From Flavobacteriaceae bacterium (GTDB lineage Bacteria; Bacteroidota; Bacteroidia; Flavobacteriales; Flavobacteriaceae), in assembly GCA_013373635.1 (NCBI GenBank), contig JABXHN010000010.1:124001-188000 (forward strand): a stretch of DNA of 64,000 nucleotides, written 5' to 3'. Both the position numbers and the translations under genes were made by a program. Position 1 is the stretch's first letter, and each line of letters starts with the position of its first letter. Shown piece by piece: positions 23,016 to 62,461 of the stretch. The notes beneath the pieces were generated by a model. The model did no database searches, was not told the origin of the DNA, and saw only the letters and a list, made by a program, of their open reading frames with translations.

Positions 23016-24341
23016 TTATTCTGATTGTGCAAAGGATTCATTGAAAAATCCAATGCAATCCAATTGAGATTTAACCGGGTTAATGGTATTGATATATGTA
23101 AGTCTAGATGGTTCAGGGAGCGGTTTAGCCTTGGGAAGCTTTTCCTTAAGAGGATCCACTTGTCTGCCGTTTTTCCAAAAGCGATAGCACACATGTGGCC
23201 CAGAGGTGTTTCCTGTCATACCTACCCATCCAATCACATCGCCTTGTTTGACGTAATCGCCATTTTTAACCTTGCGTTTACTCATGTGAAGGTATTGAGT
23301 TGAATAGGTATTGTTATGTCTAATTTTAACGTAGTTACCATTGGCTCTTGTATATGAAGCAGCAATAACCCTTCCGTTTGCTGTCGCCATGATTGGGGTT
23401 CCTACCTTTGCCGCATAATCGGTTCCTTTATGTGGCTTCACCTTGTTTCCGTAGTAGGAAATTCTCCTTTTGAGATTGTAACGAGAAGAAATACGACTAA
23501 AATTTACAGGAGCTCTTAAAAAGGCTCTTCTGAGATTTTCTCCCTGATCGTCAAAGTATTCAATGATGTTTTCGTTCTCTGGAGATGGATGTCTAAAGGC
23601 GTAAAAGGCTTTACCGTTGTGTTCAAAATAAGCCGCTTTAATAGGTCCCATTCCTACATAAGTGTTGTCATTGATATAGTGCTCGTCGTAGATCACTTTG
23701 AACTTGTCTCCTTTTGAGAGTCTCCAAAAGTCAATAGTCCAAGCGTAGATAGCCGCTAAATTATGAGTAACATCATAATCGATTCCCTGATCTAAAATTG
23801 CTTCAGACAAAGAAGTGGTAATCACTCCAGAAGCCTCGCGTTCTACTGATTTGATTTCTCTTTCTTTTCGCTCTAAGCTTACCTTATCTCTCAGATCGAC
23901 AATAGCGTAATTAACCTTGTCAATTTCATAGATAAAAAGCTCTGCTTTATTGATAGAGTCCTTAGATTTTAAGATGGTATAAGGTCTTCCAACTCGAATC
24001 TTTCTCAAGTCAAAAATAGCTCTGTTCTTTTTAGTAGTTAACGAGTGAATTTCAGGATAACCAACGCGGTGTTTAAGAAGCAATTCACCAAAACTATCTC
24101 CCGACTTAACAGTATCTCTAACAACTTCGAACAGATTGAGATTAAAGCCATAGTACATACTGTCTTTAGCTTTCTTTTCTTTAACAGTAGTTGTTTCTTC
24201 AAGTTCTGGGAGCTCCAATGATTCTTTATCGGAAGAGGAAGCGAATATAATAGAGCTGATCACTACAATTGAAAATGCTGCCAAGAGTAGTTTAAATTTT
24301 TTGCTTTTTAGTAAATGAGCTAAGAGTTCCCTTGCTTCCAT
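23016..24341 (-). CDS. M23 family metallopeptidase (LytM-like), membrane-anchored
   Basis: The 441-residue protein has one N-terminal membrane helix (about 17-35), a long middle region with a LysM/OapA-like N-terminal part, and a C-terminal M23 domain (about 300-410). Zinc and catalytic residues are visible as His304 and Asp308 (H-K-G-T-D), His352 (Y-L-H-M-S) and His383 (G-P-H). The usual HxH reads H-V-C, so a zinc ligand is Cys385 instead of His. Such enzymes cut peptidoglycan cross-links, or act as activators when inactive. A TAATTTTG box sits 4 bp before the ATG. The gene probably heads the operon with pgi. Confidence 0.93.
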
Positions 24342-24345
24342 GCTG

Positions 24346-24353
24346 CAAAATTA
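24346..24353 (-). promoter_or_regulatory. -7 box of M23 peptidase-pgi operon
   Basis: Minus-strand TAATTTTG, full match to TAnnTTTG, ends exactly 4 bp before the ATG at 24341, predicting a leaderless transcript. No good -33 TTG at 17-21 bp. Confidence 0.45.
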
Positions 24354-24378
24354 ATAAATCCCTTCAATTATCGGGATT

Positions 24379-24417
24379 AAAAAAAGAAAAAGCCCGAATT
24401 CATGACTCGAGCTTTTT
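24379..24417 (-). terminator. Intrinsic terminator of the candidate small RNA
   Basis: Minus-strand stem AAAAAGCTCGA with TCGGGCTTTTT (11 bp, one G-U), 9-nt loop, then C and seven T. It could also stop read-through from uvrC. Confidence 0.85.
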
Positions 24418-24483
24418 CATTAACCAACCAAACTTTATAAATTATGAAAAACTTATTTTAAGTACAGGGAACCACCCCTGCAC
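24379..24483 (-). ncRNA. Candidate small RNA of about 105 nt
   Basis: On the minus strand, a promoter (TTG-N17-TAAATTTG, plus coordinates 24487-24514) is followed by a predicted RNA beginning at about 24483. The RNA starts with a hairpin, GUGCAGGG pairing with CCCUGUAC (24476-24483 and 24462-24469). An AU-rich middle and the box GTTTGGTTGGTT (24422-24433) follow. It ends with an 11-bp terminator stem (24407-24417 with 24387-24397) and a T run. G-U pairs in both stems become A-C mismatches on the plus strand, which supports the minus orientation. No coding capacity of note. A similar element exists near 43.05 kb. Confidence 0.6.
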
Positions 24484-24486
24484 TGA

Positions 24487-24514
24487 CAAATTTATAAAGA
24501 GCGTTGATCTCCAA
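24487..24514 (-). promoter_or_regulatory. Promoter of the candidate small RNA
   Basis: Minus-strand TTG (plus 24512-24514), 17-bp spacer and TAAATTTG (plus 24487-24494) fit the Bacteroidota promoter. The predicted first base coincides with the first base of the 5' hairpin. Confidence 0.6.
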
Positions 24515-24578
24515 GGGTGTTTTTAACGATTTTTAACGCAAAGTTTAACAGATCTCAATAAAATTTTAAGAATTAGAT

Positions 24579-26366
24579 CTAATGTAGGGCGTTAAAAATT
24601 AGCGTCGCCTTGGCTGGTCCCACCTCTTGTATGAGATCTTCAACCGAAAGTTCTTTTATTTTTGAAAGTGATTTGTATTTGGAAAGAAGTTGTTCAACGG
24701 TCTTTGGGCCAATCCCTTCAATGGACTCTAACTCTGAATTAAAAGCTGATTTGCTTCTCAGGTTTCTGTGAAAGCTAATACCAAATCGATGGGCTTCATT
24801 TCGAAGGCGTTGTACAATTTTTAAACTCTCTGATTTTTTATCCAGATATAGCGGAATTGAATCTCCAGGAAAATAGATTTCTTCCAATCGTTTAGCGATT
24901 CCAATAATAGCTATTTTACCTCTTAGACCCAGTTGTTCAAGCGCTTTTAAAGCAGAGGACAACTGTCCTTTACCACCGTCGATGACAATGAGTTGGGGTA
25001 GGGGCTCCCCTTCTCTTTGAAGGCGTTTATAACGCCTGAGCACTACTTCCTCCATGGATGCAAAATCATCTGGTCCTTCAACGGTTTTAATCTTAAAATG
25101 TCTGTAATCCTTTTTAGAAGGTTTTCCGTCTTTAAACACCACACAGGCTGCCACTGGGTTGGTCCCTTGAATATTGGAATTGTCAAAACACTCGATATGT
25201 CGAGGTTCCTCACTTAACCTAAGGTCTTTCTTCATCTGAGCCATGATGCGATCGACGTGTTTATCTGGATTGACTAATTGAAGCTGCGTAAGGACGTCTT
25301 TTCGGTAAAAGAGGGCATTTCTATGAGAGAGCTCTATGAGTCTTTTTTTGTCACCTGTTTTAGGAATGGTGATTTTTAATCCTTTAGGTACCAACACTTC
25401 AAAGGGCAGATAGATTTCTTTTGAAATACTGGGGTATTTTTCTTTGATAGCCAAGATTGCATACTCTAAAAGCTGCTCTTGTGTTTCGTTTAGTTTCTTT
25501 TTGATCTCGAGGGTATGAGAGCGAATAATGGCTCCTTGAACTACTTCTAAATAATTGACATAGGCATGGGTTTGATCGGCGATGATGCTGAAGACATCGA
25601 CATTGTCAATCTTAGGATTTACTACAGTTCGTTTGGATTGATATTTTGAGAGTAACTCTAATTTTTCCTTGTACAGTTGAGCTTCTTCAAATTCCATACG
25701 ATCTGATTTTTCGAGCATCTTTTGTTTAAAAAGCTTTAAGGCCTTATTGAGTTTTCCCTTTAAAATCGATTGAACTGCTTTGATGTCTTCACTGTATTGA
25801 GCTTCTGTCTGCAGGCCTTCACAGGGGGCTTTACAGTTCCCCATATGATATTCCAAGCATCGCTTGTAGTTCTTGGCCTCTATTTTGGAAGCAGAGAGAT
25901 CATAGTTACAAGATCGAAGTGGATAGAGTTCGTGAATTAATTCAAGAAGCGCTCTTATGGTTTTAGGATTGGTATAGGGCCCGTAATAGGTTCCATTCTT
26001 AGGAAGGAGTTTTCTAGTGGAGAACACTCTTGGATAAGGTTCTTTTGCAATACAAATCCAAGGATAGGTTTTGTCATCCTTGAGCAGTATATTATAGCGA
26101 GGCTTGTTTTTCTTTATGAGATTGTTTTCCAACAAAAGGGCATCAGTTTCTGTGGGAACCACAATGTGTTTGATGGATTGAATCTTGGAGACTAAGATTC
26201 TAGTTTTAGCATCATCGTGTTTTTTAGCAAAGTAAGAACTCACTCGCTTTTTGAGGTTTTTGGCTTTTCCAATATAGATAATGGTCCCTTTTGAGTCGTA
26301 AAATTGATAGACTCCTGGGCTCGAAGGAAGCGAGGTTAATTGTATGTCAATTGAAGCACTTTCCAC
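24579..26366 (-). CDS. uvrC: Excinuclease ABC subunit C
   Basis: UvrC makes the dual incisions in nucleotide excision repair with UvrB. The 595-residue protein has an N-terminal GIY-YIG nuclease domain (S-S-P-G-V-Y-Q-F-Y and I-I-Y-I-G-K-A-K-N-L, about 14-39), a UVR/UvrB-binding segment in the middle, and the RNase H-like second nuclease domain (H-I-E-C-F-D-N-S-N-I-Q-G, with a conserved Asp). A helix-hairpin-helix end (I-E-G-I-G-P-K-T-V-E-Q-L-L) closes it. The start is GTG at 26366. A TACCTTCG box 6 bp before it differs from consensus by one base. Confidence 0.98.
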   Translation of the reverse strand: MESASIDIQLTSLPSSPGVYQFYDSKGTIIYIGKAKNLKKRVSSYFAKKHDDAKTRILVSKIQSIKHIVVPTETDALLLENNLIKKNKPRYNILLKDDKTYPWICIAKEPYPRVFSTRKLLPKNGTYYGPYTNPKTIRALLELIHELYPLRSCNYDLSASKIEAKNYKRCLEYHMGNCKAPCEGLQTEAQYSEDIKAVQSILKGKLNKALKLFKQKMLEKSDRMEFEEAQLYKEKLELLSKYQSKRTVVNPKIDNVDVFSIIADQTHAYVNYLEVVQGAIIRSHTLEIKKKLNETQEQLLEYAILAIKEKYPSISKEIYLPFEVLVPKGLKITIPKTGDKKRLIELSHRNALFYRKDVLTQLQLVNPDKHVDRIMAQMKKDLRLSEEPRHIECFDNSNIQGTNPVAACVVFKDGKPSKKDYRHFKIKTVEGPDDFASMEEVVLRRYKRLQREGEPLPQLIVIDGGKGQLSSALKALEQLGLRGKIAIIGIAKRLEEIYFPGDSIPLYLDKKSESLKIVQRLRNEAHRFGISFHRNLRSKSAFNSELESIEGIGPKTVEQLLSKYKSLSKIKELSVEDLIQEVGPAKATLIFNALH

Positions 26367-59984: not shown

Positions 59985-60611
59985 ATGGAAATAGATAAAA
60001 TTTTTGAAAACAATAAAAATTGGATATCTAATAAATTAGAGACCGATCCAGATTACTTCAATCAGCTTGGAGAAGGCCAAAGTCCAGAACTTTTATACAT
60101 CGGATGTTCTGATTCAAGAGTAACTGCAGAAGAATTAATGGGAGCAAAACCCGGAGAGATATTCGTTCATAGAAATATCGCAAATATGGTGGTAAGTATT
60201 GATCTCAATTCGATGTCAGTAATTAATTACGCAGTAGAACACCTCAAGGTAAAACACGTCGTAGTATGTGGTCATACCGCCTGTGGGGGTGTCAAAGCAG
60301 CAATGGATTCAAAAGATTTGGGGATCCTTAATCCATGGCTCAGAAATATTAGAGATGTGTATAGAACACATGCAAAAGAACTCAATTCTATTGAAGATGA
60401 GGAACAAAAATACGATCGTTTGGTTGAGCTCAACACTCAAGAACAATGTGTGAACCTCATTAAAACCGCAGTAGTACAAAAAGCGATTCGTAAACGCGGA
60501 TTAAAGATTCACGGATGGGTATTTGATGTACATACTGGAGAACTCAAGGATTTGGGTATCGACTATGACACAATCTTGGAAGGCATTCGTGAAATCTATC
60601 ATTTAGATTAA
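59985..60611 (+). CDS. Beta-class carbonic anhydrase
   Basis: The 208-residue enzyme interconverts CO2 and bicarbonate. Zinc ligands are visible as Cys41 (I-G-C-S-D-S-R), His97 and Cys100 (C-G-H-T-A-C), with the Asp43-Arg45 dyad. H-R-N-I-A-N is also conserved. There is no signal peptide, so it is cytoplasmic. The SulP transporter gene follows after 26 bp, suggesting linked bicarbonate import and hydration. Confidence 0.97.
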   Translation: MEIDKIFENNKNWISNKLETDPDYFNQLGEGQSPELLYIGCSDSRVTAEELMGAKPGEIFVHRNIANMVVSIDLNSMSVINYAVEHLKVKHVVVCGHTACGGVKAAMDSKDLGILNPWLRNIRDVYRTHAKELNSIEDEEQKYDRLVELNTQEQCVNLIKTAVVQKAIRKRGLKIHGWVFDVHTGELKDLGIDYDTILEGIREIYHLD

Positions 60612-60637
60612 TACTAACATTTAAATTTTAATAAGTT

Positions 60638-62461
60638 ATGAAAGGTTTATTTAAGCATTTCAAAGGAGATTTTTTTGGAGGTATTACAGCTGGAATAGTT
60701 GCCTTACCTCTAGCTTTAGCCTTTGGGGTTTCTTCGGGACTAGGACCAGACGCTGGTTTGTACGGAGCGATCTTTATTGGAATTTTTGCAGCGATGTTTG
60801 GAGGAACTCCCTCTCAGATTTCAGGGCCAACAGCTCCGATGACCGCAGTGAGTTTACTCATTGTATCAGGAATTGTAGGAGCTTATGACGGAGATATATC
60901 AAGAGCACTTCCAGCGATACTTACAGTTTTTATCCTCTCGGGGATTATTCAAATCGTCTTGGGATCACTTCAATTAGGGAAATATATCAAGTATATCCCT
61001 TATCCCGTGGTATCTGGATTTATGACCGCGATAGGGGTCATTATTATCGCAACACAATTACTCCCTTCTATGGGCTATTATCCAAAAGATGATTTGGTCT
61101 ATGTGGAGACTTTTAAGGCTCAGGCGGAAGAGGTCCTTTTAGAGAAGATTTTAAAAGACGAAGCAGGTGAGGGCTATTTAGTACTCGAAGATTTTACTGA
61201 AACAGAGCGCAGGGCAGCACTCATCTCTGAAGATGAAATCGCTCAAGAAGCAAAGTTATTGGCAAATGATCACTCCAAATCTGTATATGGAGCCTTGAGC
61301 ATACTACCTCGAGCTATTCAGAATATTAATTATTTAGAATTTGTTCTGGCGTTTATGACGATACTGATCATCTATGGATTTAAAAAGATTACTATAGCAG
61401 TCCCCTCGACACTTGTCGCATTGTTGGCGGTTTCATCAGCAGCCTATTTTTTAAACCTAAACTATATGACCATCGCTCAGATTCCTCAGGGATTTCCAAT
61501 GCCTCGATTGGAGATTTTCACTGAGTTTTCATTTGGAGCCATATCCCCTTATTTATTTACAGCCCTATCACTCGCTCTTTTAGGAGCCATCGACTCACTC
61601 TTGACCTCGGTTGTAGCAGACAATATGACTAAGACCAAACACAATCCTAATAAGGAGCTTATTGGTCAGGGAATCGGAAATGCTGTCGCAGGTCTATTTG
61701 GAGGAATACCTGGTGCTGGAGCAACGATCAGAACGGTTGTAAATATCAATGCCGGTGGAAAAACTAGACTTTCCGGAATTATTGCTGGATTGTTACTCTT
61801 AGTTGTTTTATTAGCCCTTGGACCAATTGCTTCAAAAATACCTGCAGCAGTACTCTCAGGAATTTTGATTACGGTAGGGATTGGAGTAATGGATTACAAA
61901 GGACTTAAAGCAATACCTCATATTCCCATTGGAGAAATTGCAATTATGGTAGTCGTACTCTTGCTCTCTGTATTTTGGGATTTAGTAAGTGCTGTAGGGA
62001 TTGGATTGGTTCTCGCCTCACTGATCTTCATGAAAAAGATGGGGGATGCCACCGCACAGCAAACTAAGATCACTCCTGTGAGTCATAAAGAGGATGAGGA
62101 TCATATGCTCAGTAAAGAGGTCTATGTCAAAAAATTAGAGGGCCCCTTATTCTTTGGTTCTACTTCTGATCTTCAGGAACTTGCAAAGAAAGTCCCCAAT
62201 GAAATCAAACACATTATCCTTGTAATGGATAAATCTTCTTATATCGACCAAACTGGGCTTTATGCTTTAGAAGAAATGATTATCGGATGGGAAATGAACT
62301 CAATAGAAGTGTATTTAGTAGGGATTCAATCACAGCCTCGATTGCGCTTAGAACGCATTAGTATTATTCCAAAATTGATATCAAAAGAACAGATATTCAA
62401 GAGCATAGAGGATTGTTTAGCATACATTAAGGCTTTAACTACTCAAAAGCAAGAAGCGTAA
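60638..62461 (+). CDS. SulP family transporter linked to carbonic anhydrase
   Basis: The 607-residue SLC26/SulP protein starts D-F-F-G-G-I-T-A-G-I-V-A-L-P-L-A-L-A-F-G and has about 12-14 helices with G-P-T-A-P-M-T-A-V. A C-terminal STAS domain (about 480-600; P-L-F-F-G-S-T-S-D-L) ends it. An unusual acidic loop of about 55 residues (about 150-205, many Glu) lies between helices and is absent from the SulP protein at 41.5 kb. The linkage to carbonic anhydrase suggests bicarbonate as substrate, as in BicA-like transporters; this is inferred from context. Confidence 0.95.
   Translation: MKGLFKHFKGDFFGGITAGIVALPLALAFGVSSGLGPDAGLYGAIFIGIFAAMFGGTPSQISGPTAPMTAVSLLIVSGIVGAYDGDISRALPAILTVFILSGIIQIVLGSLQLGKYIKYIPYPVVSGFMTAIGVIIIATQLLPSMGYYPKDDLVYVETFKAQAEEVLLEKILKDEAGEGYLVLEDFTETERRAALISEDEIAQEAKLLANDHSKSVYGALSILPRAIQNINYLEFVLAFMTILIIYGFKKITIAVPSTLVALLAVSSAAYFLNLNYMTIAQIPQGFPMPRLEIFTEFSFGAISPYLFTALSLALLGAIDSLLTSVVADNMTKTKHNPNKELIGQGIGNAVAGLFGGIPGAGATIRTVVNINAGGKTRLSGIIAGLLLLVVLLALGPIASKIPAAVLSGILITVGIGVMDYKGLKAIPHIPIGEIAIMVVVLLLSVFWDLVSAVGIGLVLASLIFMKKMGDATAQQTKITPVSHKEDEDHMLSKEVYVKKLEGPLFFGSTSDLQELAKKVPNEIKHIILVMDKSSYIDQTGLYALEEMIIGWEMNSIEVYLVGIQSQPRLRLERISIIPKLISKEQIFKSIEDCLAYIKALTTQKQEA

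Follow-up and report, generated by a model that had tools for sequence, protein, structure and literature searches.

In enterobacteria, the envelope-stress small RNAs (sRNAs) MicA, RybB and OmrA/B act by anti-start pairing and are made from regulated promoters. We know of no sequence relation between them and the flavobacterial sRNA described here, which may share both the anti-start pairing and the regulated promoter. GibS and FopS of Bacteroides, which like this sRNA come from Bacteroidota, combine seeds with an intrinsic terminator, and GibS binds the translation initiation regions of its mRNAs (accessible text of PMC11697453). FopS has a single-stranded 5' stretch, a terminator hairpin and 14 paralogues, whereas the RNA at this locus folds into three hairpins and is usually present as a single clear copy. 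For F. psychrophilum, the accessible text of PMC9723704 reports 85 new RNAs, four structured ones being conserved in other species. Among the RNAs it describes, Rfp11 has an alternative-sigma promoter, and Rfp18 (expressed also in F. columnare) has a third stem-loop that is used for pairing; in stationary phase, deletion of rfp18 lowers mRNA levels for two metalloproteases (PMC9723704). According to the same text, flavobacterial mRNAs have no Shine-Dalgarno sequences (PMC9723704), which raises the question of how an sRNA would block translation in flavobacteria. F. columnare also has candidate sRNAs without Rfam matches, according to the part of PMC5395568 at hand.

The locus examined here lies in a stretch of 64,000 nucleotides (the window) from a member of the Flavobacteriaceae (GenBank assembly GCA_013373635.1, contig JABXHN010000010.1, positions 124,001 to 188,000). 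An initial annotation made from the letters alone had proposed a minus-strand sRNA downstream of uvrC. No Rfam 15 family, including Flavo-1 and 6S (structured RNAs of related bacteria, to which this sRNA can be likened), scores at or above its gathering threshold anywhere in the window or in the 15 homologous loci searched. Searching the gap itself gives 26 matches with E<=10, all far below gathering scores and none of them to Flavo-1 or 6S; the FopS model (RF04319) scores 15.2 bits there, short of its gathering score of 56. A literature search, judged mostly by titles, found no title describing this RNA family. The sRNA is new to Rfam 15, and its transcript may already have been detected in one species. 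With its presence across the family, its mostly fixed locus, a covariance model and an anti-start core, it offers a case that can be tested in harmless laboratory flavobacteria, and a candidate Rfam family.

Promoter, fold and terminator of the sRNA gene

24579 to 26366, minus strand: uvrC, upstream of the gap (Pfam UvrC_RNaseH_dom and GIY-YIG)
24342 to 24578: gap between uvrC and the M23 peptidase gene, 237 bp
24521 to 24550, minus strand: upstream element TGTTAA, GTTAA, GTTAA, about -40 to -68 from the predicted transcription start
24487 to 24514, minus strand: putative promoter TTG-N17-TAAATTTG of Bacteroidetes sigma-A type (from sequence, with the box position taken from PMC9723704, seen in part)
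24379 to 24483, minus strand: small RNA of about 105 nt, a predicted transcript with its first base at about 24482-24483 (from fold, homologues and covariation)
24462 to 24483, minus strand: stem-loop 1, a variable stem around conserved GGGUGGU (fold, covariation and RNAalifold)
24437 to 24456, minus strand: stem-loop 2, AU-rich (fold and covariation)
24419 to 24433, minus strand: single-stranded linker GUUUGGUUGGUUAAU (fold)
24379 to 24418, minus strand: intrinsic terminator, a 14-pair stem (24418-24386) followed by a T-run (24385-24379) (fold and compensatory changes)
24346 to 24353, minus strand: TAATTTTG box, possibly a separate M23 promoter, with no TTG at the usual distance
23016 to 24341, minus strand: M23 peptidase gene, downstream of the gap (Pfam PF01551, 116 bits)

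Read on the minus strand, the promoter consists of TTG (24514-24512), a 17-nt spacer and TAAATTTG (24494-24487), and the relatives shown have a TAnnTTTG-like box, recognized by sequence, at the equivalent place. In F. psychrophilum the TAnnTTTG box sits at -12 to -5 (PMC9723704, accessible text), which would place +1 at about 24482 and the foot of stem 1 within one base of the predicted start. A simple sigma70-type promoter scan does not list this promoter, as expected for a box of Bacteroidetes type. RNAfold on the minus strand of 24483-24379 gives -34.4 kcal/mol (z -6.05, with none of 200 shuffles equal) vs -20.9 kcal/mol (z -4.82) for the plus strand of 24379-24483, so that the minus orientation proposed at the outset is preferred by 13.5 kcal/mol. 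The case first made for it, a G-U pair in both stems where the plus strand would have an A-C mismatch, stands.

The elements that the initial annotation had put in order within a 237-bp gap (TTG-N17-box promoter, 5' hairpin, AU-rich middle, GTTTGGTTGGTT box, terminator, T-run) all lie where it placed them, and its claim that the stem begins exactly at the predicted first base agrees to within one base. The lengths it gave for the two stems need revision: the 5' stem is present with 9 pairs in the minimum-energy fold, not 8, and the terminator, with its T-run, has 14 pairs including an A-U extension, not 11. The AU-rich middle of the minus-strand RNA does contain GTTTGGTTGGTT, and the loop region of stem-loop 2 bears UUUUUCAU (24451-24444), the complement of AUGAAAAA. 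Its expectation of no long open reading frame also stands, the longest NTG-started frame fully within the window's RNA having 13 aa; a 64-aa TTG-started ORF on the plus strand (24332-24526) crosses the RNA. A peptide on either strand is rejected, since a frame through the whole RNA is open in the sense direction in 6 of 67 homologues and on the complement in 1 of 67. As far as can be judged from sequence, the hallmarks of an intrinsically terminated bacterial sRNA gene (promoter, terminator, covarying structure, no conserved frame) are all present. We hold with high confidence that the uvrC gap contains a real, conserved and autonomous sRNA gene on the strand first predicted; its structure, conservation and autonomy we regard as established, and its transcription is predicted from these features.

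The upstream element has GTTAA starts spaced 12 and 10 bp apart in the window. The corresponding element of the Maribacter-like clade is often AGTTAAAGTNNGTTAAA, with a 10-bp period. A search of 149 genomes finds 20 matches to AGTTAAAGTNNGTTAAA, 14 of which (hand count) are just upstream of the RNA; the element thus marks the sRNA promoter. The six other matches compare with 20 for reversed-pattern controls, none above control, which gives no sign of a wider GTTAA regulon in those 149 genomes. Response-regulator boxes have such spacing, and the GTTAA repeats, to judge by theirs, may be the site for a response-regulator-like protein.

Covariation and distribution in the Flavobacteriaceae

The initial annotation had proposed a search of relatives for compensatory changes and would have counted the loss of the stems from gaps that keep uvrC against its RNA; relatives instead retain the stems through compensatory changes. 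In an alignment of 67 copies (64 distinct), fitted to a model with the same structure and thereby favouring that structure, 94.4% of cells are paired vs 79.9% in shuffles, 28 of the 37 pairs are changed on both sides vs 18.9, cells with two-sided change number 292 vs a shuffle mean of 66, and the covariation score is 0.457 vs 0.191 in shuffles and at most 0.100 with slid partners. RNAalifold, left free to choose on the same alignment, recovers these three main helices again. When just the first nine copies are used the signal is weaker, with 4 of 37 pairs changed on both sides and 16 of 500 shuffles as high; in the first small set the covariation score was at most 0.116 in every slid or shuffled control. 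Judged from this alignment, the structure of the sRNA is under selection.

Variation falls in the stems, that of the terminator showing compensatory changes, and in the terminator loop. GGGUGGU-like letters in loop 1 occur in 65 of the 67 homologues, as do the TTTTCAT of loop 2 and the linker's GGTTGGTTA; in those aligned loci that were found through a pattern in the core, its conservation is partly by choice. The linker reads GGTTAGTTA in many loci of genus g128, presumably Flavobacterium, as it has by far the most genomes sampled.

Within the window's own genus, 9 of 12 genomes (its own included) have a clear match, with E 1.8e-9 or better; the three without one are 61-82% complete. Of 397 family genomes, 223 match R1, a covariance model built from nine copies, at E<=0.01, a count that takes in matches of about 30-48 bits unsorted as real or chance, and 91 match it at >=50 bits; a few weak g128 matches of about 30-48 bits carry the core. 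The second model (R2), built from 67 copies, matches at E<=1e-4 in 245 of 250 g128 genomes, at least 149 of them having a match of >=50.6 bits (150 rows among the matches listed). Across the order, R2 reaches E<=1e-4 in 87 of 395 genomes, comprising 58 of the 76 family members and 29 of the 319 other genomes; with about 9% of those others matching, some matches at this threshold may be due to chance. All matches of >=50 bits in the order scan are within Flavobacteriaceae. Matches outside the family, where the best score is 45.3 bits, are taken as chance matches, the two best of the 29 (genomes G421 and G430) having neither the core motif nor shared neighbours at their loci (L272 and L273). A scan of named genomes finds at least 80 loci, in Maribacter, Zobellia, Arenibacter, Allomuricauda, Robiginitalea, Croceitalea, Kordia, Galbibacter, Capnocytophaga and others. 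Paralogues occur: genome G034 has three dispersed copies, and Kordia (L090, L123) and Cerina (L119) loci have two near each other. By these model matches, the sRNA is conserved across much of the Flavobacteriaceae.

Gene neighbourhood and autonomy

The association with uvrC is secondary, most relatives having an HPPD-like or patatin-like gene upstream of the RNA and DUF3108 downstream. In a count of 113 loci, some of them ending early and some possibly from a genome entered twice through different collections, the first same-strand ORF (>=90 aa) after the RNA encodes DUF3108 in 95; the closest ORF upstream is of HPPD-like type in 51 loci and of patatin-like type in 45. DUF3108 and Trp_dioxygenase are confirmed by Pfam; the HPPD-like proteins are so named for their glyoxalase-fold domains, the HPPD N-terminal model scoring 26.8 bits against a cut-off of 27, and the names patatin-like, homogentisate-dioxygenase-like and YceI-like were given from the sequences by reading. 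The composite neighbourhood is uvrC, patatin, HPPD-like, the RNA, DUF3108, Trp-dioxygenase-like, M23, pgi. Two genus-mates (L010, L015) have patatin, RNA, DUF3108 and M23, and the window and a close relative (L009) have uvrC, RNA and M23; going by gene order, these last two appear to have lost patatin and DUF3108 and kept the RNA. At 23016-26366 the window thus reads uvrC, RNA, M23, pgi; it has neither the patatin-like gene and DUF3108 present in its genus-mates nor the genes of HPPD-like and Trp-dioxygenase-like type present in other genera.

The regular position ahead of DUF3108 (95 of 113 loci), and in the window ahead of M23, could mean that the RNA is a cis-acting leader, an attenuator or riboswitch whose regulated terminator controls the downstream operon. 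Downstream of the RNA, 90 of 107 loci have a sigma54-like element vs 72 of 2000 random stretches, lying between the RNA terminator and DUF3108 with TTTGGAAYAAATTTTGTTT as a common form among the matches listed, and this argues against dependence of the downstream gene on the promoter and terminator of the RNA. For F. psychrophilum, PMC9723704 (accessible text) describes a sigma54 motif that has -24/-12 elements. No sigma54-like element is visible in the window or in its genus-mates L036 and L044, so that a separate downstream promoter is less clear in that genus. The TAATTTTG box ends 5 nt ahead of the M23 start codon, and an M23 mRNA begun from it would be leaderless. DUF3108 also exists without the RNA: of 13 family genomes chosen from those listed without an R2 match, all 13 carry the gene, a comparable TTTGG element can be read by eye ahead of it (in L343 about 340 nt from DUF3108), and R2 at these 13 loci detects no RNA, its best score being 14.9 bits; 5 of the 13 genomes have a weak R1 match somewhere (E 8e-4 to 0.01). 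Conversely, Kordia L123 has two RNAs after HPPD-TDO, facing an opposite-strand gene, and Capnocytophaga periodontitidis L136 has one RNA with no neighbour in common with other loci, so that neither lies upstream of DUF3108. The promoter-like element, the RNA-free DUF3108 loci and the copies at other places together make a leader role for DUF3108 or M23 very unlikely, and we reject it.

It is scarcely credible that uvrC and M23 are separated just by promoter-like sequence and a terminator working in both directions, the gap encoding no functional RNA. Intergenic terminators are common and the 3' hairpin could serve both strands, but conservation is higher in the linker and loops than in the terminator, and the two-sided changes at 28 of 37 pairs in practice refute this reading. 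An independent sRNA gene is the reading we retain.

In loci L037-L065 and L086-L165, a later TAGTAATTTTAC box often precedes the DUF3108-TDO-M23 gene row, which may belong to a sigma54 regulon.

Conserved core and possible modes of action

As an independent gene, the locus would produce a regulatory RNA of about 105 nt with three hairpins, from its own TTG-N17-TAnnTTTG promoter below the GTTAA-repeat element, ending at its own intrinsic terminator. A DNA-binding regulator would control this promoter at the GTTAA repeats. Loop 2 (UUUUCAU) and the unpaired linker GUUUGGUUGGUUA would form a highly conserved surface, complement-like to AACCAACCAAAC-N-AUGAAAA, and this core would base-pair at the start regions of a small number of mRNAs, blocking or altering their translation. 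The core, UUUUCAU loop plus GGUUGGUUA linker, has as its complement AACCAACCAAAC-N-ATGAAAA, which resembles a local translation start. The four non-self matches to the core that were inspected in the genus (L019, L020, L021, L023) lie antisense on ATGAAAA starts, the product at L019 and L020 being YceI-like.

A first sample of 37 family genomes has AACCAACC before ATGAAAA 67 times at non-self sites vs 33 in controls, after removal of 17 matches in the RNA itself (one, in G018, by look alone). In a larger test, AACCAACC-N0-11-ATGAAAA occurs 45 times vs 45 for controls in 36 g128 genomes, 22 vs 16 in 13 family genomes beyond g128 that match at >=50 bits, and 46 vs 24 in 27 family genomes without such a match. 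The enrichment of the first sample is therefore not tied to carriers of the RNA, and the search for targets through this motif comes out negative. Nor does a general excess of start pairing emerge in the window: the core pairs with 29 of 52 window starts, and 10 of 60 shuffled cores match that. A scan of the window's genes yields one candidate.

60603 to 60659, plus strand: weak candidate target, the start region of a SulP/STAS permease gene at 60638-62461 (from duplex prediction)

The predicted duplex at the permease start (60638) has -25.6 kcal/mol (z -6.0), stands out among the 52 window starts and is the best non-self of 8526 window stretches. No dinucleotide-shuffled core among 200 equals it, but 1 of 40 anti-start decoys derived from other starts does. 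Support from orthologues is mixed: their starts give z -3.5, -2.2, -1.5 and -3.6 in four genomes with a strong RNA match and z +1.6 to -2.9 in 13 others, in a scan where at least one start (G406) is misplaced. The permease is thus a weakly indicated target, proposed from sequence complementarity.

We lean modestly toward a trans-acting antisense RNA that pairs over mRNA start regions, with both the pairing and the targets put forward as predictions. The near-invariance of the TTTTCAT loop and the GGTTGGTTA linker and the position of the four inspected matches on ATGAAAA starts favour it, and the outcome of the target-motif test, the shuffled cores that pair as often and the decoy that equals the permease duplex weigh against it. 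Conservation of the core could also reflect protein binding. A real sRNA that acts by binding a protein (an RNA chaperone, a ribosome part or a regulator), with loop and linker as the protein site, would fit the separate conserved stretches GGGUGGU and GGUUGGUUA and the failure of the target motif; the UUUUCAU loop, however, is shaped like an anti-start seed, and the matches inspected elsewhere sit on start codons, and we consider this alternative rather improbable. The antisense reading in its fullest form, a core sRNA of the Flavobacteriaceae under a dedicated GTTAA regulator whose UUUUCAU blocks the AUGAAAA starts of exported or membrane proteins, is unlikely as a whole. A start-codon blocker, if true, would suit bacteria that initiate without Shine-Dalgarno pairing.

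Compatible with the antisense reading, though itself doubtful, is the suggestion that this sRNA is one of Rfp11, Rfp13, Rfp15 or Rfp18 of F. psychrophilum (PMC9723704, accessible text). Like those RNAs, compared here by description rather than by sequence, it is structured and genus-conserved (PMC9723704); it is near-universal in the presumed Flavobacterium genus and has three stem-loops, which recalls the third stem-loop of Rfp18 and its expression in F. columnare. Against Rfp18, pairing of that RNA goes through its third stem-loop (PMC9723704), which here is the variable terminator; against Rfp11, its alternative-sigma promoter (PMC9723704) is unlike TTG-N17-TAAATTTG. Were the sRNA Rfp18, it would be needed for normal stationary-phase mRNA levels of two metalloproteases (PMC9723704).

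For the permease gene of the window, a search at E 1e-50 finds no match in 11 other genomes of the genus, several of them incomplete. At 59985-62461 the window has a carbonic anhydrase-like gene (named by reading), with the SulP/STAS permease gene 26 nt later; the two are perhaps a bicarbonate uptake pair.
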